From positions 1,063,108-1,127,107 of the forward strand of contig NZ_WTVA01000015.1 in NCBI RefSeq assembly GCF_009882935.1: a stretch of 64,000 nucleotides of DNA. The letters run 5' to 3'. The position numbers and the translations under genes were made by a program. This DNA is from Sneathiella chungangensis. Its GTDB lineage: Bacteria > Pseudomonadota > Alphaproteobacteria > Sneathiellales > Sneathiellaceae. Positions within the stretch are counted from its first letter, which is position 1. Every line of letters starts with the position of its first letter. Of this stretch, positions 26,627-58,026 are shown one piece after another. The notes below the pieces were generated by a model that was given only the letters and a program-made list of their open reading frames with translations, ran no database searches and was not told the DNA's origin.

Positions 26627-27301
26627 ATGTCAGAGACAAAGCTATCCGCTTCCGACCGGATGATAGAAGCAGCGGGGCGGCTGTTCGCCGACCGGCCCTT
26701 TGATTCTGTCTCGACCCGCGAAATCGCCGCCGCCGCCGACGTAAATCTTTCTGCGATCTCCTATCATTTCGAGAGCAAGGAGGGTCTCTACCGCGCAATA
26801 TTCGAGAAGATCGTGCGGGACATGAAGCCGGTGCGCGTGAATCTGGCGCTGGTACTTGAGCACCAGCTTGCCGACGCGGGGGATGACCGCAAGGCTTATG
26901 CGGATATCCTGGCACTTTTTATTTCCCGGCTGATCGACAGTGCAATTTCGCCGGTCACGCGCTGGCGCATGCGCCTGATCAAGCGGGAAATCGAGATGCC
27001 GACCGAGTGTTTTCAGATTATCATGGACGGGCATATCAATATCATTCATGACCTTCTTGGCATTCTGATCGCGCGGATTTCCGGGGAGTCGCCCACAAGC
27101 GAACGTGTCAGGCTGGAGGCGACATCGGTCCTTGCCCTTTGTTTGCAATATGCGCTCAACGAGGAAATTGTGAAGGTCCGGCTTGGATGGCAGACAATCG
27201 GCCCCGAAGAAATCAGGAAAATAAAGAATTCGATGACAGACATGATTCTCTGCTCCCTCGATCTCGGGGAATATATCGATTTTGTCAGAAAGGGGTCGTA
27301 G
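26627..27301 (+). CDS. TetR-family regulator with CerR-type C-terminal domain
   Basis: A 224-residue repressor. The N-terminal helix-turn-helix reads FDSVSTREIAAAADVNLSAISYHFESKEGLYRAIFEKI (in pieces, about 25-63). The C-terminal region with RWRMRLIKREIEMPTE resembles the DUF1956/CerR group that often sits in front of RND efflux genes. It ends 1 bp before the adaptor gene, so it is in the operon it probably represses. Inducer unknown. Confidence 0.88.
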   Translation: MSETKLSASDRMIEAAGRLFADRPFDSVSTREIAAAADVNLSAISYHFESKEGLYRAIFEKIVRDMKPVRVNLALVLEHQLADAGDDRKAYADILALFISRLIDSAISPVTRWRMRLIKREIEMPTECFQIIMDGHINIIHDLLGILIARISGESPTSERVRLEATSVLALCLQYALNEEIVKVRLGWQTIGPEEIRKIKNSMTDMILCSLDLGEYIDFVRKGS

Positions 27302-27302
27302 C

Positions 27303-28544
27303 GTGAGGCTCGTCCTGAAAATACTGTCGCCGCTCCTCATTCTGGGGGCCGGCGCCGGGCTAGCCGCCTATCTCATTGCGACCAAGCCGGTAGTCGAGCC
27401 CGAGGTTGTCGAAGAAAGGGTCTGGACCGTCGCCGCGGTGCCGGTCGAAATAAAAGATCAATCGGTTGACCTCAATCTCTTCGGATCGCTCAAAGCCGTT
27501 CGCGATGTCGAGTTACGCTCGCTTGTCGGCGGAGAGGTGATCGAGGTTGGCGAAAATTTCCGCGAAGGCGGGCTTCTTGAAAAAGGCGATCTTCTTGTGC
27601 GCGTCGATCCCTTCGAGTTCGAGGCAAGCCTCAACGAGAACAAGGCATCGCTTCTGGAGGCGAGATCCCGGCTCAACGAACTGGTTGCGACCCAGGACTC
27701 GGAGATAGCGGCGCTCAACCGGGAGCGTGAAGTGCTGGAACGGGAAGTCCGCAACGTCGAGCGAGCGGAAAGTCTCGCCAAGCGCGGCAATATTTCGGTG
27801 AAATCCCTGGACGATGCGCGCTCCGCGCTCAGCCGGCAACGGCAGACTGTCGAACTTCGCGAGGCGCAGCTCGAAATTCTGAAAGCGCGGATCGGTCAGC
27901 AGCGCGCGGTTATCGACCGTCTCGAGGTTGGTGTTCTCCGGGCGGAGAGGAATCTGAAAAACACCAGCCTCCGCGCGCCGTTCCGGGGATATGTCACGGA
28001 CGTCAATGCCGAGTTCGGAAAGAATATCGGCGCAAGCGACAAGGTCGCCCGCCTGATTGACGCCACGCAGATGGAGGCACGGTTCTTACTTTCCGACAGC
28101 CAGTATGGCCTGTTGCTTGGCAGTAATGCCGGCATTATCGGACGGCCGATTACCGTCACCTGGCAGTCCGGTGATGCCGAGCTGGCCTTCAGCGGCCGGG
28201 TCGCGCGACTCAGCCCCGAGATTAGTTCCGATACCGGGGGCGTTGAAGTATTTGCGGTGCTGGAGCCCAGCGAATATACCCCCTTTTTGCGCCCGGGCGC
28301 GTTTGTCGAAGTGGTACTGTCCGGCAATCGATATCCGAACGCCGCGAGGCTTTCGGACAGCAGCCTTTTTAATGGCGACACCGTTTACGTTGTCGAAGAG
28401 GGAAGGTTGCAGCCGCGGAAGGTGGAGATCGTCGCCCGGAATGGTGATGAAATATTACTTCGTGGCGATATTTCCGACGGCGATCTCGTTGTGACGACCC
28501 GGCTTCCTGAAATCGGTCCGAACCTTAAAGTCGAGGTGCGTTGA
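27303..28544 (+). CDS. RND efflux periplasmic adaptor (membrane fusion protein)
   Basis: A 413-residue protein with an N-terminal membrane anchor. The first lipoyl half-motif and a long alpha-hairpin (roughly 95-190, rich in Glu, Arg and Leu heptads) follow, then the second lipoyl half ending NTSLRAPFRGYVTD and beta-barrel sequence. It bridges the RND pump to an outer membrane channel; no TolC-type channel gene is present here. The start is a GTG at 27303, right after the TetR stop. Its own stop overlaps the pump start (TGATG). Confidence 0.9.
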   Translation: MRLVLKILSPLLILGAGAGLAAYLIATKPVVEPEVVEERVWTVAAVPVEIKDQSVDLNLFGSLKAVRDVELRSLVGGEVIEVGENFREGGLLEKGDLLVRVDPFEFEASLNENKASLLEARSRLNELVATQDSEIAALNREREVLEREVRNVERAESLAKRGNISVKSLDDARSALSRQRQTVELREAQLEILKARIGQQRAVIDRLEVGVLRAERNLKNTSLRAPFRGYVTDVNAEFGKNIGASDKVARLIDATQMEARFLLSDSQYGLLLGSNAGIIGRPITVTWQSGDAELAFSGRVARLSPEISSDTGGVEVFAVLEPSEYTPFLRPGAFVEVVLSGNRYPNAARLSDSSLFNGDTVYVVEEGRLQPRKVEIVARNGDEILLRGDISDGDLVVTTRLPEIGPNLKVEVR

Positions 28545-31500
28545 TGGACTTGACGCGCTTCGTCAAAATGTTCGTCCGTCATGAGAATGCGGCCAATCTT
28601 CTGATGATCATGATGATCATGATGATCGTCATCGGCGTCGCCTCGATTTTCCGCCTGAATACCCAATTCTTCCCTGACTTCGGCACCGAGGTCATCACGA
28701 CGACGATTGTCTGGCCCGGGGCAAGCGCCGAGGATGTCGACAGCAACATCACGACGGCAATCCTCCCGGAGGTCCGCTTCCTGAACGGGGTAAAACGCGT
28801 GACCTCCTACTCCGTTGAAGGGAGCAGCATTGTCGTCGTCGAATTCGAGCCTGGTACGGACATGCAGGCGGCCCTCTCCGAAGTCGAGCAGGGTATCGCG
28901 CAGATCACCACCTTTCCCGATACCACCGAAACACCCATTATAAATCGAATCGTCTTATATGATCCGATCGCCCGTCTGTCTGTCTCGGGGCCATATTCGG
29001 AAGAGGCGCTCAAAAAATACGCAAAAACCATCCGTGATGACCTGCTTGATCTCGGCATCGACAAAATCACCCTCTTCGGCGCTCGCGATGAGGAAATCTG
29101 GGTCGATGTTGAAAAACGCGACCTTCGCCGGCTTAATCTCAGTCTTACCGATATCGCGACGATCATCCGCAATAATTCTCAGGATGTCCCGCTCGGCACC
29201 GTGTCCGGCAGTTTCGAGCGGCAGCTCCGCTCGCTTGAGCAGAAAGCAAACGCGAAATCGCTTGGGGCGCTCGAGATTAAATCCTTTGATGATGGCCAGA
29301 AAATATACCTCCGTGACATCGCCAATGTCCGCGACCAGTTCGCGGAGAAGGGGCAGACCGGGTGGCATAAGGGCGACAAAGCCATTGAGATCAGCATTCA
29401 GCGCGCCCAGTCGACCGATGCCCTCAAGGCGGCGAAGATTGTCTCCGATTATTTTGAACGCGAGAAGGCCCGGTGGCCGCCAGAGCTGGAAATCAAGCAA
29501 TATGACGTACAGGCCAGTCTGATCGAGGACCGCATCCGTCTGCTCCTGACGAACGGGGCAAGCGGACTGGTGTTGGTGCTGATCGTCCTCTTCATCTTTC
29601 TCAATGTCCGCGTGGCCTTCTGGGTGGCCGCCGGTATTCCCGTGGCGATCCTTGCAACGGCGGGCGTCATGCTGGTAACCGGACAATCGATCAATATGAT
29701 CAGCCTGTTCGCTATCATCATGTCGCTCGGGATTATCGTCGATGACGCCATCGTCGTCGGGGAGCATGCCTCCCATCTGCGATCGACAGGATTGTCCGCG
29801 GCGGAAGCGGCGGAGCGGGGCGCGCTTCGGATGCTGGCGCCGGTGTTCGCGTCCAGCCTGACCACCATTGCGGCCTTCCTTCCGATCTTTCTGATCGGAG
29901 ACGTCATCGGCCAGATAATCCGCGCCATTCCGGCGGTCGTCGTCTCGGTCCTGATCGCAAGCCTGATCGAATGTTTTCTGATCCTGCCCGGCCATATGCG
30001 CCAGGCGCTCCGCGCCCAGGGCGCCCGAACCAGCCGGCTGCGCGAATGGTTCGATGCGAAATTCTTCTATTTCCAGACGCATCTCTTCCGCCGCGTCGTT
30101 GAAGCGACGGTGAACTGGCGGTATGCGACCCTTGCCGCGGCTTTCGCCATGCTGATCATTTCGGTCGGATTCATGCTTGGCGGACGGGTTGGATTTACCT
30201 TCTTTCCGTCCCCGGAGGCCAATGTCGTGAATGCAAATGTCGTCTTCGCGCCGGGCAGTGCGCGAAGCGGGACGGAAGCCATGGTCAAGGAACTTGAGAG
30301 GGCGTTGTACAAGGCGGAAAATGACCTGACGGACGGCGAGGGCGGATTGATTGTCATGGCGCTTGGCAAGGTTGGCGTCAGCACGGGAGACCAGTTCAGC
30401 GCTGTTTCTGGCGATAATCGCGGCGGCATGATGGTGGAGCTCATCTCGGCGGACCTTCGCGATGTCCGCACGGCGGATTTCATCGCCGCCTGGCGACAGG
30501 AAATCAGGGAAATGCCGGGGCTGCAGCGCATCGCGCTGACGGAAAGAATTGGCGGGCCGCCGGGTCGGGAGCTCGATATCCGTCTCAAGGGGAACAATGT
30601 CGAAGGGCTGAAGAACGCGGCGGAGGAGGTAAAGGCACTCCTCACGAAATTCCGCGGCGTATCCGATATTGAGGACGACCTGCCCATCGGCAAGCAGGAA
30701 ATCATTCTCGAATTGACCCCGCGCGGTCGCGCGCTCGGATTCACGACGGAAGATATTGCGTCGCAGGTACGGGCCGGGTTCGAAGGCGTCATCGCGCGGA
30801 AATTTGCCCGTGGCGATGAGGAAGTGACCATCCGGGTCCAGCTTCCACGTGACCAGGTCGCCGCCGAAGCCCTGCAGGATTTCTATCTGAAAAGCAGCTC
30901 CGGTGTCGAAGTACCGTTGTCGGCGGTGGTGACGGAACGCACCCAGGTCGGCTTCGCCCGCATCAAGCGCGAAGACGGCGTGCGGGAAGTCGCGATTACG
31001 GCTGAAATAGACGAGAACCTGACATCCTCGGATCAGGTGCTGAGCGCATTGCCCGAAAGTGGGCTGGAGGCGATCGCCGCGAAATACGATCTCCGGTACC
31101 GTTTCGCCGGAAAGTCGGAAGAACAGGCGGATACCATAGCCGACATGAAATTCGGCGCCATTGTGGGACTGTCGGCAATTTACCTTGTCCTCGCCTGGGT
31201 GTTTTCCTCCTACTGGCGTCCTGTTGTTGTGATGTCGATTATTCCCTTCGGTCTGGTCGGCGCTATTCTTGGTCATTACCTGCTTGGCTTTAACCTGACG
31301 ATCCTTTCGCTGATTGCCTTGCTGGGGCTGTCGGGCATTCTGGTCAATAATTCGATCATTCTTGTCAGTGTGATTAACGAGCGGCTCACCAAGGGGGAAG
31401 AATATTCTTCCGCGGTTATCGGCGGGACATGTGACCGGCTCAGGGCTGTCCTGCTGACCTCCCTGACGACCATCGGCGGATTGACACCCCTTCTTTTCGA

Positions 31501-31675
31501 GACGAGCCTGCAGGCCCAGTTCCTGATCCCGATGGCGATTACCCTCGTCTTCGGCCTGATGGCCGCGACTTTCCTCGTGCTATTTCTGGTGCCCGCGCTT
31601 CTCCTGATCCAGCAGGACATTGGCTTTATCTCAGAGTGGATAAAATCGCTTTACCGTCCAAAGGCGAGAAGCTGA
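28544..31675 (+). CDS. RND efflux transporter, HAE-1-like
   Basis: A 1043-residue inner membrane pump with the twelve-helix, two-large-periplasmic-loop layout of the AcrB/HAE family. The proton-relay aspartates are in SLGIIVDDAIVVGE of helix 4. In helix 10 the residue matching AcrB Lys940 appears to be Asn (ILVNNSIIL), a variant seen in several RND subfamilies. The first helix is unusually rich in Met and Ile, encoded by a short ATGATC repeat. Substrates cannot be deduced. It forms an operon with the TetR regulator and adaptor. Confidence 0.92.
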   Translation: MDLTRFVKMFVRHENAANLLMIMMIMMIVIGVASIFRLNTQFFPDFGTEVITTTIVWPGASAEDVDSNITTAILPEVRFLNGVKRVTSYSVEGSSIVVVEFEPGTDMQAALSEVEQGIAQITTFPDTTETPIINRIVLYDPIARLSVSGPYSEEALKKYAKTIRDDLLDLGIDKITLFGARDEEIWVDVEKRDLRRLNLSLTDIATIIRNNSQDVPLGTVSGSFERQLRSLEQKANAKSLGALEIKSFDDGQKIYLRDIANVRDQFAEKGQTGWHKGDKAIEISIQRAQSTDALKAAKIVSDYFEREKARWPPELEIKQYDVQASLIEDRIRLLLTNGASGLVLVLIVLFIFLNVRVAFWVAAGIPVAILATAGVMLVTGQSINMISLFAIIMSLGIIVDDAIVVGEHASHLRSTGLSAAEAAERGALRMLAPVFASSLTTIAAFLPIFLIGDVIGQIIRAIPAVVVSVLIASLIECFLILPGHMRQALRAQGARTSRLREWFDAKFFYFQTHLFRRVVEATVNWRYATLAAAFAMLIISVGFMLGGRVGFTFFPSPEANVVNANVVFAPGSARSGTEAMVKELERALYKAENDLTDGEGGLIVMALGKVGVSTGDQFSAVSGDNRGGMMVELISADLRDVRTADFIAAWRQEIREMPGLQRIALTERIGGPPGRELDIRLKGNNVEGLKNAAEEVKALLTKFRGVSDIEDDLPIGKQEIILELTPRGRALGFTTEDIASQVRAGFEGVIARKFARGDEEVTIRVQLPRDQVAAEALQDFYLKSSSGVEVPLSAVVTERTQVGFARIKREDGVREVAITAEIDENLTSSDQVLSALPESGLEAIAAKYDLRYRFAGKSEEQADTIADMKFGAIVGLSAIYLVLAWVFSSYWRPVVVMSIIPFGLVGAILGHYLLGFNLTILSLIALLGLSGILVNNSIILVSVINERLTKGEEYSSAVIGGTCDRLRAVLLTSLTTIGGLTPLLFETSLQAQFLIPMAITLVFGLMAATFLVLFLVPALLLIQQDIGFISEWIKSLYRPKARS

Positions 31676-35562: not shown

Positions 35563-35590
35563 AAAAAAACCCCGACCATCGATCAGGGTT
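35563..35590 (-). terminator. Riboswitch-linked terminator in the metZ leader
   Basis: On the minus strand a 10-bp hairpin with two G-U pairs (AACCCTGATC with GGTCGGGGTT, loop GAT) is followed by a run of T. It ends about 17 nt before the metZ ATG and downstream of the SAM-II core. A second GGTCGGGG copy, just after the riboswitch, could compete for pairing. Confidence 0.8.
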
Positions 35591-35600
35591 CCTGCGAGCC

Positions 35601-35660
35601 CCGACCTTTTAGCGTTTCTTTTAACGTGGCCGCAAGCCGGTCGGCACAAATCACCACGGA
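35601..35660 (-). ncRNA. SAM-II riboswitch
   Basis: The minus strand carries the conserved SAM-II elements in order: CGTGGTGATTTG, GCCGACCGGCTTGC, GGCCACGTTAAA and CGCTAAAAGG. The 5' CGTGG pairs with CCACG. The downstream CGCTAAA segment forms the pseudoknot in known structures. It sits in the leader of metZ, the classical target. With an intrinsic terminator after it, SAM binding is expected to lower metZ transcription. Confidence 0.92.
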
Positions 35661-35664
35661 AAAA

Positions 35665-35693
35665 TCTTTAGCGAGACGGTTCTCGGCTGTCAA
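35665..35693 (-). promoter_or_regulatory. Promoter of metZ
   Basis: On the minus strand TTGACA is followed, after exactly 17 bp, by TAAAGA. The start of transcription would fall at the 5' edge of the SAM-II core, so the whole leader is accounted for. Confidence 0.7.
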
Positions 35694-40434: not shown

Positions 40435-42243
40435 TCAATCCAGACGGTAGATCGTGACGGGATCATGCCGGCCCTTCAGCCGGTAATCCCCGATCCTTTC
40501 CGCCTTTACATCGGTGGTGGCCTCGAAGGTGGCATCGGTCACGAGTATCAGGACGTCATCGGTCTGATCGGGGGAGAGTGTTTTGCCATACTGCTCCATC
40601 CGCTGGGCGATATTCACCGTGTCGCCGACAACGGTGTAGTTGAGCCGGCCCGCCGATCCGATATTGCCGACGACCAGCGGTCCGGTATGAATTCCGATGC
40701 GCATATGCACATCGCCAAGGCCCTGTTTTCTGCGCTCTTCATTGTCCGCGATAATGGCTTTTTTGATGGCGAGACCGGCGCGGCAGGCGCGGGCGGCGTG
40801 GTCCGGCTGATGATCCGGCGCGCCCCAGAACGCCATTACGGCATCGCCGATGAATTTGTCGACAGTGCCGCCCTCCGCCTCTATGCAGCTTGTCACGAGT
40901 TCGAAATGGTGATTGAGGAAGTCGGCGACGTCTTCCGACGACATGCTCTCGGCCTGCGGCGTAAATCCGGCGATATCCGTGAACATCACCGTCACGACGC
41001 GCTCTTCTGACCTCGCCTCCCCGCTTTCCATCAGCTTGCGGACAAGGGACTTTGGCACGTAGGTCTCGAACCAGGTGAGTCCGCGCAGCATGCGATTATA
41101 GGCGTTATTCGCTTCATCGACCTCGGTAAACCGGCTGCGGGGGAGAGATTTGACGGTGCTGAAATCGAGCTGTGAGATCTGCCGGGATGCGGCGGATAAG
41201 GCAAGCACGGGGCGGGAAATGCGCCGCCCGATCACAATTGCGACGACAGCGCTGAGCAGCATGATACCGAGTCCCGCAAATCCGGCGATCATCAGCCGGC
41301 GCAGCTCGACCGCGACATCGTCATTGAGAATGTAATAGCCAATCGTGAAGGGCCGATCGGCATATCCCTCCAGGTCCTTATAGACGAAGATATATCCCTT
41401 TCCACCCACCTCCAGGTAATGGCTGTTGAAAGTCGCGTCATCGCCCAGCAATTCGAGCTTTTCCCCGTTCTTCGACCAGATGTTCCGCAATACGGGATCG
41501 TCTATTTCTTCGAGCTTCGGAATGACATTATCCATGCTGAGGCCCGTATCCGGTTTGTCGATGCCCTCCTGCGTCAGAACGCGGCCTGTTCCATAGAGAA
41601 TAAAGCGTTTGCCGTTGGTCAGCAGGGGACCCGCATTCATCCTGGCATTGACGATTGTTGCCGGGACAGTCGCAATCAGCGCGCCGATAAATTCACCATC
41701 CCGGATAACCGGCTCTCTATAATTGAGGACTGTCTCCGCCAGCGTCGAAACATAGACAAGCGGGCCCCAGCTCCCGTCCTTGCGGCCGGAAATATCGGCA
41801 AGGCCCCGCCTTGCAACCGGATCGTTGCTTTCATCAAGGGTAATCACCCGGCGGCTTGTGCGGTTGGCGGCGGTCACCTGAAAATTGGGGGCAACGAAAG
41901 TGAGAGAGGAAATCTGCGGCGTTCCGGCGAGGGCGCCCAGAAGAAAGTCGGAGAGCTGATCCCTGTCGTCGATTTTCAGCTGGCCCGATGTGATCAACCG
42001 CGAGATATAGGTTGTCTGAAAAGCCGCCGGATCCAGAAGGTCACGAAGGTCGTATTCCGTTGTCTTCATCGCCGCTTCGGCCTTGTCCGTCAGGAGGTCG
42101 CGCGTATTGCGAAGGCCTGATACAAGGCTTATACCGAGGACAATAACGACCGTGATGACAACCAGCGTACCGAAGCTGACGGCGAGGACCGTCGCGATCG
42201 GCAAGGATTTCATCGGTTTATCCGGTGAGGTCGAAATCGGCAT
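40435..42243 (-). CDS. Membrane-bound class III adenylate/guanylate cyclase
   Basis: A 602-residue protein. It has a first helix at about 14-36, a large extracytoplasmic sensor region (about 40-320) with Cache-like sequence, a second helix and HAMP region (GRRISRPVLALSAASRQI), and a C-terminal class III catalytic domain. The catalytic domain has VTVMFTDIAGFT with the metal Asp, DKFIGDAVMAFWG and NYTVVGDTVNIAQRME. It probably makes cAMP in response to an external ligand. The ATG at 42243 has AGGAG five bases upstream; the longer in-frame reading from a TTG at 42294 is less likely. Confidence 0.88.
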   Translation of the reverse strand: MPISTSPDKPMKSLPIATVLAVSFGTLVVITVVIVLGISLVSGLRNTRDLLTDKAEAAMKTTEYDLRDLLDPAAFQTTYISRLITSGQLKIDDRDQLSDFLLGALAGTPQISSLTFVAPNFQVTAANRTSRRVITLDESNDPVARRGLADISGRKDGSWGPLVYVSTLAETVLNYREPVIRDGEFIGALIATVPATIVNARMNAGPLLTNGKRFILYGTGRVLTQEGIDKPDTGLSMDNVIPKLEEIDDPVLRNIWSKNGEKLELLGDDATFNSHYLEVGGKGYIFVYKDLEGYADRPFTIGYYILNDDVAVELRRLMIAGFAGLGIMLLSAVVAIVIGRRISRPVLALSAASRQISQLDFSTVKSLPRSRFTEVDEANNAYNRMLRGLTWFETYVPKSLVRKLMESGEARSEERVVTVMFTDIAGFTPQAESMSSEDVADFLNHHFELVTSCIEAEGGTVDKFIGDAVMAFWGAPDHQPDHAARACRAGLAIKKAIIADNEERRKQGLGDVHMRIGIHTGPLVVGNIGSAGRLNYTVVGDTVNIAQRMEQYGKTLSPDQTDDVLILVTDATFEATTDVKAERIGDYRLKGRHDPVTIYRLD

Positions 42244-42349
42244 ACTCCTGAAAAGCGAATATTCTGCCTTAGCATGAGACGTGACGGCGTTCAAAGCCTA
42301 ACCTGCGCCCTTTAGTAGACAAAATTCCGTAAGTCGGTATACTCGCGCC

Positions 42350-54760: not shown

Positions 54761-55354
54761 TTAGGCAGATTCCTTTTCTTCGTCAGCGTCAGCCGCTTCT
54801 TTCGACTTGTCCTTGCTGTTTTCCATTTCCGCGAGGAGGCTTCCCTGCTCCCCGGCGATTTTTTTCATTGTCCCGCCGATTTCTCCGCCCGGTTCAATCT
54901 CGATCTCGCCGTAGCTGATGTTACCGGTGACCTTGCCGGTCTTGCGGATGACGAGGCGCTTGCGGGCCTTCATGGTGCCATCAAACTGGCCGGAAATATC
55001 GGCCGTATCGATATCGACGGTGCCATTGAAGATGCCGCTCTTGCTGATCTCGATTTCCTTGCTGGTCATCGAGGCCTCGACCTTGCCTTCGACGATCAGG
55101 CGATCGCAGGAGGTAATTTCACCTTTCAGATGAATATCCGCGCCGACATGAAGCTTGCTGCCTTCCTTTTTTTCCTCTGCCCCCATGCCGTAGGGGGCGG
55201 GTTTCGGACGCAAACCATTATCAATGCCAAAGCTTCTTGTTCCGCCAGTTGTAGTCATCGGTTTTACTCTGCTTTCCAGTTTCTGTTCCGGTGTAGATGA
55301 TGTTTCCTGCTTTTCCTCGGGAGCATCCGTCAATTTCGGTTTCTTGTGAAACAT
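54761..55354 (-). CDS. Bactofilin-family polymer-forming protein
   Basis: A 197-residue protein with a central bactofilin beta-helix of short repeats (about 70-165: LHVGADIHLKGEI, LIVEGKVEASM, GIFNGTVDIDTADISGQFDG, KVTGNISYGEIEIEPGGEIGG). The N- and C-terminal tails are disordered and charged. Bactofilins polymerise without nucleotides and scaffold cell-wall enzymes at stalks, poles or curved zones. It lies upstream of the sigma-factor gene on the same strand with a gap of about 125 bp, so co-transcription is possible but unproven. Confidence 0.9.
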   Translation of the reverse strand: MFHKKPKLTDAPEEKQETSSTPEQKLESRVKPMTTTGGTRSFGIDNGLRPKPAPYGMGAEEKKEGSKLHVGADIHLKGEITSCDRLIVEGKVEASMTSKEIEISKSGIFNGTVDIDTADISGQFDGTMKARKRLVIRKTGKVTGNISYGEIEIEPGGEIGGTMKKIAGEQGSLLAEMENSKDKSKEAADADEEKESA

Positions 55355-55524: not shown

Positions 55525-55734
55525 ATGACGATGAACTCTCGAAAAATAATTGGGCTGGCAGGACTGCTCGTTCTTCTGACCGCCTATTGCGCAATATGCC
55601 TGTTCATCGCCGTGCAGTTTCTGCCCGCCAACAAGCTCGCGGAACTGATTTTTTATCCACTCGCGGGCGTCATCTGGATATTCCCGGCAATGAGAATAGT
55701 AAAGTGGATGCAATCACCGCCCGGTTCCAAGTAA
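55525..55734 (+). CDS. DUF2842 small membrane protein
   Basis: A 69-residue protein with two hydrophobic helices and the segment ELIFYPLAGVIWIFPAMRIVKWM, the pattern of the alphaproteobacterial DUF2842 family. Its function is unknown. The start at 55525 could also be the ATG two codons later. Confidence 0.82.
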   Translation: MTMNSRKIIGLAGLLVLLTAYCAICLFIAVQFLPANKLAELIFYPLAGVIWIFPAMRIVKWMQSPPGSK

Positions 55735-55740
55735 CGGCAT

Positions 55741-55779
55741 AAAAAAAGCCGGACCGAGAGGGGGGATCGATCCGGCTTT
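55741..55779 (-). terminator. Terminator hairpin ending the candidate small RNA
   Basis: Arms AAAGCCGGA and TCCGGCTTT enclose a 17-nt loop and are followed on the minus strand by seven T. On the plus strand the T-tract is interrupted, so it is a weaker terminator for the DUF2842 gene. Confidence 0.8.
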
Positions 55780-55838
55780 ATATTGCCTTTCGATGGGAGA
55801 GGGGGACTTTCCCAAGGATCAGCAAAGGTTTGATAGCG
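55741..55838 (-). ncRNA. Candidate trans-acting small RNA with two C-rich loops
   Basis: On the minus strand two hairpins follow one another and the second is an intrinsic terminator. The first is closed by CCTTT/AAAGG and an inner GGG/CCC. Each loop displays the same nine bases CCCCCTCTC (complements at 55797-55805 and 55756-55764), which are complementary to purine-rich ribosome binding sites. A TATAGC or TAGTAC box lies just upstream. No reading frame of note covers it. A 3'-UTR of the hydrolase transcript upstream is an alternative origin. The rest of the 329-bp gap (55735-56063) shows only the CRP-like palindrome. Confidence 0.55.
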
Positions 55839-55887
55839 TCTGTACTAAGCTATACACCCTATTTGGTGCTTTTTTTATTAATGTCCA

Positions 55888-55901
55888 GTGATCGATATCA
55901 C
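55888..55901. promoter_or_regulatory. CRP/FNR-type palindrome
   Basis: GTGATCGATATCAC is a perfect palindrome in its outer five bases on each side (GTGAT/ATCAC). It fits GTGA-N6-TCAC, the core of CRP sites, and is two bases off the FNR site TTGAT-N4-ATCAA. Its centre is about 60 bp upstream of the candidate sRNA 5' end. Confidence 0.45.
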
Positions 55902-56063
55902 TCTTTTTTCAGGTGCGTAGCCGGATCAGGACGCCAAATCAATGTCGCCGCCAAATAGGTTTTTATTTTAATGGCTTAGCGAACAATCGCCTACTCGACT
56001 GCAAGTAAAAACTAGGCGAAAAATATGACCGATTTACGGCAGTTTAGTATAAATTTTCCTAAG

Positions 56064-56822
56064 CTAGCGCATATTGCCGATACGCTCCGTTGCCAGGATC
56101 AGACGCGTAATGTCATCCGGCTCGGAGAGGCGATGGTCGCCGTTTTTTATCAGGGACACGGTCACATCTTCGCTGACCAGCGCTTCCTGTATCTTGAGGG
56201 CGGTTTGCCAGGGTACGCTATCGTCCTTCATGCCCTGAAGCAGATGAACGGGGCAGGTCACATCGATCGGCCCGTCCAGCAAAAAGTTGCGCGGCCCGTC
56301 ATCCAGAAGCTTTTTGGTAATGATATAGGGTTCGTCCGAATATTCCGATGGCTGTTCCCAGAATCCCTTGCTTTTGATCGCCTCTTTCCCGTCTGGCGGC
56401 ATATCCTCCCACATGCGCGCGGTAAAATCCGGCGCGGCGGCAATACCGACGAATCCGGCAATGCGCTCCGGACGCAGCAACGCCATGCGCAGGCCGATCC
56501 AGCCGCCCATGGAAGAGCCGACGATAATTTGCGGGCCCGCCGTGCAATCGTCGAGGATCGCAAGCGCATCATCTGTCCAGCGGCTGATCGTGCCGTCGGT
56601 AAAATTACCGGTCGATTGCCCGTGCCCCAGATAATCAAATCGTGTATAGCTGCGGTGAAGGGCTTTCATCGCCTTTTCAAGGGCGGTGGCTTTTGTCCCT
56701 TCCATATCCGACATGAAGCCCGAGCAGAATATTACTCCGGGCGAGAAGCCGGCGGTATGATGATAGGCGAGGGATTGACCATCCGGCCGGGGCAGCATAC
56801 TAGGTGTGTCAGTCGAAGTCAT
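56064..56822 (-). CDS. Alpha/beta hydrolase
   Basis: A 252-residue serine hydrolase with the nucleophile elbow GSSMGGW and the acid near CPVHLLQGMKDDSVPW. The catalytic His is in NGDHRLS, and FDYLGHGQS is typical of palmitoyl-thioesterase/acyl-ABHD-like members. The substrate is unknown. The start is uncertain: the ATG at 56822 leaves only 22 bp to the divergent glycosyltransferase start and has no ribosome binding site, so the ATG at 56798 is also possible. Confidence 0.85.
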   Translation of the reverse strand: MTSTDTPSMLPRPDGQSLAYHHTAGFSPGVIFCSGFMSDMEGTKATALEKAMKALHRSYTRFDYLGHGQSTGNFTDGTISRWTDDALAILDDCTAGPQIIVGSSMGGWIGLRMALLRPERIAGFVGIAAAPDFTARMWEDMPPDGKEAIKSKGFWEQPSEYSDEPYIITKKLLDDGPRNFLLDGPIDVTCPVHLLQGMKDDSVPWQTALKIQEALVSEDVTVSLIKNGDHRLSEPDDITRLILATERIGNMR

Positions 56823-56844
56823 TTTTGAGCAATAGTAACCGTTG

Positions 56845-58026
56845 ATGAACGAAACCGATCCCGAGCATAGCACTCCTTCACCTGAGGGTGAAAGGCGTCA
56901 TCCGACTGTTTTGCAAATTCTGCCAAGTTTAAATGGCGGCGGCGTTGAGCGCGGCACCATCGAGATGGCGTCGGCGCTGAAGGAAAGGGGCTGGACACCT
57001 ATCGTCGCTTCGTCTGGCGGGATCATGACTCATGAGCTGAAAAGGATCGGCGTTCGCCATATCACGCTTCCGGTTGCGTCGAAGAACCCGTTTGTCATGC
57101 GCCGCAATATTAGCCGGATCGCGGCGATCATTGAGGAATATGATGTTGATATCGTTCATGCGCGAAGCCGCGCGCCCGCCTGGAGCGCCTATTTCGCCGC
57201 GAAAAGGACCGGCGTGCATTTCGTAACCACCTTCCATGCCGCCTATAACCGCGGCGGTTATTTCAAGAACGCCTATAACGCGATCATGGCGAAGGGCGAG
57301 CGTGTCATTGCAATTTCCGATTTCATCGCCGACCATATCCGTGCGCATTATGATGTGGCGCCGGAGAGGATAGTGACCATTCCGCGCGGCGTCGATTGCC
57401 GTAAGTTCAATCCCGCCGCTATCCATGCCGAACGGATCATGGATATGTCGCGAAGCTGGGGTTTGCCGGACGGAGTTCCCGTGATCATGTTGCCCGGCCG
57501 TCTTACGCGGTTGAAAGGCCATACCACCTTTATCGAGGCGCTGGCGAGGATCAGGGACAAGGAATTTCTGGCGCTGCTTGTCGGCAGCACGGAAGGGCGG
57601 GAGGCCTATTGCGCGGAGCTCAACAAACTGGTGGTCTCCTTTGGTCTTGAAGGCCGGGTCCAGATAAAAGGGCATTGCGATGACATGGCGGTGGCGCTGA
57701 TGCTTTCCGACGTTGTTGTCTCGGCAACCTCGGTACCCGAAGGCTTTGGCAGGATTGCAGTCGAGGCGCAGGCAATGGGGCGGCCCGTGATCGCGACGGC
57801 GCATGGCGGGTCGATGGAGACGATCCTCGACGGGGAAACTGGATGGCTGGTGCCGGTTGGCGACGTCGAGGCGATGGCGGATGCGCTGGCCGCGGCGATT
57901 GACCTGTCATCGGATGCGCGTGAAGCTGTGGCCTCGCGGGCGCGCCAGCATGTCCTCGCGCATTTCGCGATTGAGCATATGTGCGCTTCTACAATTGCAC
58001 TTTATGAGGACGTGCTCGGAAACTAG
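56845..58026 (+). CDS. Glycosyltransferase family 4 protein
   Basis: A 393-residue GT-B fold enzyme. The N-terminal acceptor domain begins [18 protein letters not shown], and the C-terminal donor domain has [17 protein letters not shown]. The nucleotide-sugar motif is [25 protein letters not shown], containing the E-x7-E glutamates. It probably adds a sugar to a lipopolysaccharide core or other envelope glycan. It lies upstream of thrS and divergent to the hydrolase. A TTG directly before the chosen ATG is an alternative start. Confidence 0.88.

Follow-up and report, generated by a model that had tools for sequence, protein, structure and literature searches.

A gap between two convergent genes in the 64,000-nucleotide stretch of DNA analysed here (the window), from the marine bacterium Sneathiella chungangensis, carries a predicted small RNA (sRNA) gene on its minus strand. 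With a probability of roughly 0.7, it is best explained as a genus-specific, single-copy, trans-acting sRNA with its own promoter and terminator, whose transcription and 5′ end are predicted and which would block translation of tolC. The complementarity between the sRNA and tolC is conserved at the level of sequence, as are the structure, the seed and an upstream palindrome, and the sRNA probably turns tolC down. The likely tolC target, conserved genus-wide, is new here, and beside it we report a promoter that appears to differ between two Sneathiella groups.

A conserved two-hairpin RNA gene in Sneathiella

The locus comprises the following elements:

55735-56063, intergenic gap of 329 bp between the DUF2842 ORF and the alpha/beta hydrolase ORF
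55525..55734, plus strand, DUF2842 gene (PF11003, 63.6 bits), convergent neighbour and synteny marker
56064..56873, minus strand, alpha/beta hydrolase gene, neighbour upstream of the RNA
55741..55852, minus strand, small RNA gene of about 112 nt, the promoter layout giving its predicted 5′ end
55783..55825, minus strand, hairpin 1, bearing the tolC-complementary stretch
55745..55779, minus strand, hairpin 2, the intrinsic terminator stem of 13 bp
55741-55747, minus strand, T run of the terminator (7 T)
55794..55804, minus strand, seed CCCCUCUCCCA, complement of the tolC start, in the loop and 3′ arm of the hairpin-1 upper stem
55756..55765, minus strand, hairpin-2 motif CCCCCCUCUC, kept as at least CCCCC in all 20 relatives

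Beyond the DUF2842 gene lies a bactofilin gene (window 54764-55354, minus strand).

The minus strand folded into two hairpins at -35.6 kcal/mol, against a mean of -19.5 for shuffled sequences (z -5.8; none of 200 as good), which confirmed the original prediction of a 329-bp gap with two minus-strand hairpins, the second a terminator with seven T. A simple pattern scan reported neither the terminator of the sRNA nor a promoter at this gap. We regard the terminator as supported, and the promoter is proposed from conservation only.

A covariance model of the sRNA, built from 16 sequences, found one strong copy in 19 of 24 Sneathiella genomes (E at most 6.1e-6), and the DUF2842 gene lay within about 45 nt of the sRNA in all 19. 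The same locus occurs in Sneathiella litorea, S. sedimenti, S. chinensis, S. glossodoripedis and Sneathiella sp. The five Sneathiella genomes without the sRNA also lack the DUF2842 gene in their assemblies; four of them are 56-86% complete, and the fifth (G007) is rated 98% in 580 contigs. These counts leave out the weak best matches of G003, G009 and G012 (E 0.05-0.6) and the second-place matches in other Sneathiella genomes (E 0.02 and above). Among 385 genomes drawn across Alphaproteobacteria, the model matched five Sneathiella genomes and, doubtfully, two outside the genus (E 5.6e-4 and 1.5e-3). Neither of these two was counted as a member: L028 combines a CUCCUCUCCC stretch with a terminator in another layout, and L029 has a terminator without the C/U motifs. 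Among named genomes, a pattern scan picked out 22 stretches, of which 13 fit the covariance model, 10 from Sneathiella and one from Sneathiellales among them; the remaining nine failed it and were taken as chance.

The alignment used for covariation analysis held 20 sequences (18 distinct) and was fitted to the model, so it leans towards the model's structure; standard pairs filled 98.5% of its pair cells, and 10 of 22 pairs had changed on both sides. None of 500 shuffles reached the paired fraction or double-change values, and slid controls were 29.9-49.3% paired with at most two double-changed pairs. The double changes fell in the outer stem of hairpin 1 (three pairs) and in the terminator (seven pairs), which covary while the C/U motifs stay fixed. 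Double changes were absent from the upper stem of hairpin 1 in these 20 sequences; covariation across relatives was thus borne out for the outer stem and terminator but not there. Because it is conserved (19 of 24 genomes), covaries and carries the palindrome in 10 of 20 relatives, the sRNA locus is above chance expectation.

A position amid convergent genes, with hairpin 2 a terminator, would also suit a mere bidirectional terminator of those genes, and the hydrolase gene upstream on the same strand would suit a processed 3′ UTR of its mRNA. Such an origin is very improbable, as hairpin 1, the motifs and the promoter block are all conserved, whereas the roughly 50 aligned bp preceding the promoter block have diverged. 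We therefore favour an sRNA gene in its own right.

Exposure of the C/U motifs

The nonamer CCCCCTCTC occurs exactly twice in the window, both times on the minus strand (55756-55764 and 55797-55805), which is weak evidence alone (shuffles expect 0.68, and 13 of 100 reach at least two). The original prediction had placed it in both loops; it is indeed duplicated in both hairpins, but pairing probabilities put the motifs only partly in the loops. In the window RNA, the hairpin-1 motif opens with four unpaired C (probability 0.99-1.0), the following bases are mostly paired except for one C, and UCCCA is held in the upper stem at rest; hairpin 2 leaves CCCCCCUC unpaired and keeps the final UC in the stem. 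Across the 20 members, every RNA leaves three or four C at the head of the 11-mer open, plus one or two further bases, with L027 and L043 exposing more of it than the others. Of the 20 sequences, 19 have the seed CCCCUCUCCCA unchanged and one reads CCCCUCUUCCA. Since mainly the C run is open at rest, pairing with a target would have to begin at CCCC/GGGG and displace the upper stem.

tolC as the probable target

Target candidates were sought by exact-seed patterns. A search of the window organism's genome for GAGAGGGG before ATG yielded a TolC-family channel gene (TIGR01844, 295 bits); the pattern GAGAGGGG-N3-12-ATG gave 16 rows versus 3 for the control, and by eye only the TolC gene looked like a real start. 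Its start reads UGGGAGAGGGGC-AUG, and the seed CCCCUCUCCCA of hairpin 1 is the exact 11-nt complement of UGGGAGAGGGG, which stops one base short of the start codon. Efflux pumps and type I secretion share TolC-type channels as their way out through the outer membrane. The window itself holds an HlyD-like membrane-fusion gene beside an AcrB/AcrD/AcrF-type pump gene (window 27282-31675, plus strand), and HlyD-like/AcrB-type systems usually need a TolC-type channel.

The tolC gene was found in 22 of 24 Sneathiella genomes, giving 21 loci with a start. At 20 of these UGGGAGAGGGG is intact, and the remaining one differs by a single base. Leader columns -12 to -2 are 95-100% identical, versus 29-71% for the 48 columns from -60 to -13. 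As an ordinary Shine-Dalgarno element, the GGGAG part of the 11-mer would be conserved in any case; the DUF2842 starts of the same genomes had no comparable conserved block in the 11 of 19 loci read. Among 13 TolC-like loci from 10 alphaproteobacterial genomes outside the genus, GAGAGGGG was absent from the start, the copy in L239 lying elsewhere. As far as searched, then, the range of the tolC 11-mer is that of the sRNA. Four genomes without an sRNA match (G003, G007, G012 and G016) keep the 11-mer; as these genomes also lack the DUF2842 gene, the absence of the sRNA is most simply put down to an assembly gap.

Pairing energies of the 14-nt hairpin-1 stretch ranged from -23.9 to -26.3 kcal/mol at 20 of 21 tolC starts and reached -18.9 at the other, against a background with a mean of -8.2 (sd 3.8) and a best value of -16.1 kcal/mol. 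This background comprised 56 of the 58 window ORFs, with mechanical ORF starts, and the partner for all tolC starts was the window's sRNA, not each genome's own. Net of their own folds, the window sRNA gained -9.5 to -18.3 with 20 of 21 tolC starts (-12.0 with its own), while the 56 background starts averaged -4.2 and reached -8.9 at best; the exception was the L130 tolC start, at only -4.3. Raw full-length duplex energies did not discriminate (tolC -29 to -43; background mean -27.5, best -44.4). In the predicted complex with tolC, hairpin 1 is opened and the terminator is still folded.

Other genes may also be targets. In the window organism's genome, an IclR regulator (L226:1501-1515) has the same UGGGAGAGGGG before its start codon (-25.7) and is a second possible target. 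A Porin_4 gene stands behind an AGAGGGG site (-18.3), as do, by eye, a carbonic anhydrase gene (-18.9) and a lipoprotein gene (-15.3). One further candidate, GGGAGAGGGGACATG in five relatives, was rejected because, in the three loci read, the frame ran on upstream of the site, without a stop, for 36 to 504 codons.

Such sites raise an alternative, namely that the sRNA is a genuine anti-Shine-Dalgarno regulator with many weak targets and that the tolC leader is conserved for translation. The duplicated C/U motifs would suit a broad regulator, the four genes just named offer it candidate targets, and AGAGGGG-N3-11-ATG is in excess in the window organism's genome (58 rows versus 19 for the reversed pattern). 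That excess is not taken as proof, because AGAGGGG is partly ordinary Shine-Dalgarno sequence. We consider the alternative improbable, since the 11-mer in 20 of 21 tolC starts far exceeds what is seen at DUF2842 starts (11 of 19 read), and tolC was the sole recurrent gene start identified in the genus-wide GGGAGAGGGG-N1-10-ATG list (30 loci read). An sRNA that blocks tolC translation remains our preferred reading, and the earlier claim of a trans-acting sRNA with motifs complementary to ribosome binding sites is well supported, now with a conserved target.

Two promoter groups and a candidate activator

The upstream region and the candidate source of a signal were assigned as follows:

55887..55902, minus strand, CRP-like palindrome AGTGAT-N4-ATCACT, putative binding site of a class II activator
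55882..55887, minus strand, putative -35-like box TGGACA (TGGAAA in most relatives), from the upstream-region alignment
55860..55865, minus strand, putative -10-like CAAATA, at the place of the other group's TATAT box
40435-42294, minus strand, class III nucleotide cyclase (PF00211; dCache and HAMP matches below cut-off)

The GTGAT-N4-ATCAC core of the palindrome is present at 55888-55901, just as first described, and its occurrence alone is weak evidence. With a variable centre, AGTGAY-N4-ATCACT occurs in 10 of 20 sequences, including the window's, and abuts the -35-like box; this group has a constant distance to ACCA and a poor -10 box. The other 10 sequences are without the palindrome and have a TATAT -10 box, as CTATAT in eight. 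The groups were defined by the palindrome pattern and coincide with an independent difference, a one-base change in length 5′ of the seed, which argues against a conserved reading frame. The predicted 5′ part of the RNA carries UACAGACGC (55836-55844, minus strand), the same in all 10 palindrome-bearing sequences and not seen in the 10 without.

With CAAATA as the -10 element, the RNA would start near 55852, which would put the centre of the palindrome at about -42, where class II activators bind. The conserved promoter layout thereby revises two earlier figures: the palindrome had been put about 60 bp upstream of the 5′ end, and the transcript, now predicted at about 112 nt, had been given as about 95 nt.

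CRP recognises GTGA-N6-TCAC (the E. coli CRP core) through RExxxR. A Crp-type HTH search of the window organism's genome gave, by eye, four full Crp/Fnr-type proteins, of which only one (L115) was scanned further. This protein carries RETVAR in the recognition helix, together with a cyclic-nucleotide-binding domain. Its best full-length PDB match was catabolite gene activator (E 5.6e-22); against NCBIfam CRP it scored 92 bits, under the cut-off of 266. The class III cyclase, noted in the window from the outset and identified here by PF00211, is a possible sensor cyclase.

Alternatively, an FNR-like or NnrR-like member of the Crp/Fnr family could bind the palindrome, with oxygen or nitric oxide as the signal. 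The FNR site consensus is TTGAT-N4-ATCAA, from which GTGAT-N4-ATCAC is one base per half off, and by eye one of the four Crp/Fnr-type proteins is FNR-like, with a Cys cluster. We judge this assignment unlikely, if worth keeping in view, as GTGA-N6-TCAC is the E. coli CRP core and the L115 protein combines a matching RExxxR helix with a cyclic-nucleotide-binding domain. CRP-type control of the sRNA, with the L115 protein as the candidate activator, is plausible. For the cAMP control first envisaged, the palindrome conserved at a class II position, the CRP-like protein and the cyclase speak in favour, but half of the members lack the palindrome.

Proposed mechanism and meaning

In the window organism's group, a CRP-type activator bound at about -42 would most likely drive the sRNA. 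The unpaired C run of hairpin 1 would make first contact with the G run of the tolC leader, and pairing would then spread into the hairpin-1 upper stem, opening it, to 11 bp of CCCCUCUCCCA with UGGGAGAGGGG. This duplex, at -12 to -2 of the tolC mRNA, would cover the Shine-Dalgarno element and block translation, with the result that TolC would fall as cyclic AMP rises. In the terminator, the C/U loop could serve as a second seed for further targets, and we infer an involvement of Hfq.

In its most specific form, the proposal is of an anti-Shine-Dalgarno sRNA driven by cAMP-CRP, evolved independently of CyaR, that silences tolC by near-invariant 11-bp pairing, with its promoter rewired within the genus: one group would pair a weak -10 box with a class II CRP site, and the other would have a sigma-70 promoter without the site. 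We advance this version tentatively, at slightly under even odds. If true, a genus-wide sRNA devoted to TolC would bring export capacity under the influence of a global signal. The sRNA-tolC pair would offer a clean test system, with one seed and one near-invariant target site, and the two promoter designs on the same sRNA a natural contrast.

Comparison with known sRNAs

The sRNA represents a new family among the trans-acting anti-Shine-Dalgarno sRNAs, a known kind; it lies below every Rfam threshold and would add a further alphaproteobacterial lineage to those with the C/U anti-Shine-Dalgarno design. A covariance search of the window against Rfam at gathering threshold returned no sRNA family, only a SAM-alpha riboswitch and two tRNAs. 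The riboswitch lies at window 35589-35667 (minus strand, 72.6 bits).

In its proposed working, the Sneathiella sRNA is most like enterobacterial CyaR, a likeness of proposed function that implies no shared ancestry. Rfam holds a CyaR model, and no CyaR match was found in the region, whether at the gathering threshold or with E relaxed to 5. CyaR differs in its target and in its bacterial class, and half of the Sneathiella members are without a CRP-like site.

The best Rfam matches of the sRNA were αr14 and αr7, both far below threshold. Membership of αr14/NfeR1 (RF02344) was rejected at 24.7 bits versus 58.8. According to the consulted parts of PMC10746234, NfeR1 has hairpins repeating one anti-Shine-Dalgarno motif, a feature shared with the Sneathiella sRNA, and silences ntrB at its translation start. 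It differs, as far as the consulted descriptions go, in its LsrB/NtrC control and in carrying CCUCCUCCC in three hairpins, whereas the Sneathiella sRNA has CCCCUCUC, CCCC(C)UCUC, in two. The RNAs of the CCUCCUCCC family, SmelA075/SmelA099 and RS0680a, are described in the consulted portion of PMC3927594 as having two to four hairpins with anti-Shine-Dalgarno loops. Within the same limits, their loop motif differs from that of the Sneathiella sRNA, and SmelA075 is multicopy with fragmented synteny, whereas the Sneathiella sRNA is single-copy and syntenic.

The original prediction likened the RNA to AbcR-type sRNAs, which the excerpts consulted describe as alphaproteobacterial anti-Shine-Dalgarno sRNAs (PMC8844928; PMC10746234; PMC3927594). 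We found no tie, as no family named AbcR-type is among the Rfam matches of the sRNA region, judged by name. The αR8 RNAs SisA-D of Caulobacter are another alphaproteobacterial sRNA family, according to the part of PMC12559287 consulted. Literature searches combining Sneathiella, or CCCCUCUC, with sRNA gave nothing relevant among the entries listed, judged from those listings.

The αr7 family (RF02342) is likewise alphaproteobacterial, and the Sneathiella sRNA matches its consensus CCCCCUCUCC in the hairpin before the terminator. Membership was rejected at 22.1 bits versus a gathering score of 60 for a model of 145 positions. The αr7 model gave no match at E 0.001 in four Sneathiella genomes, in a search run without a positive control, and was above cut-off in none of 289 genomes and none of 14 controls. 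In another alphaproteobacterium, a sub-threshold αr7-like RNA with ACACCCCUCUCC (L244:1501-1623, 39.2 bits) lies close behind an ORF that resembles Hsp20 by eye.
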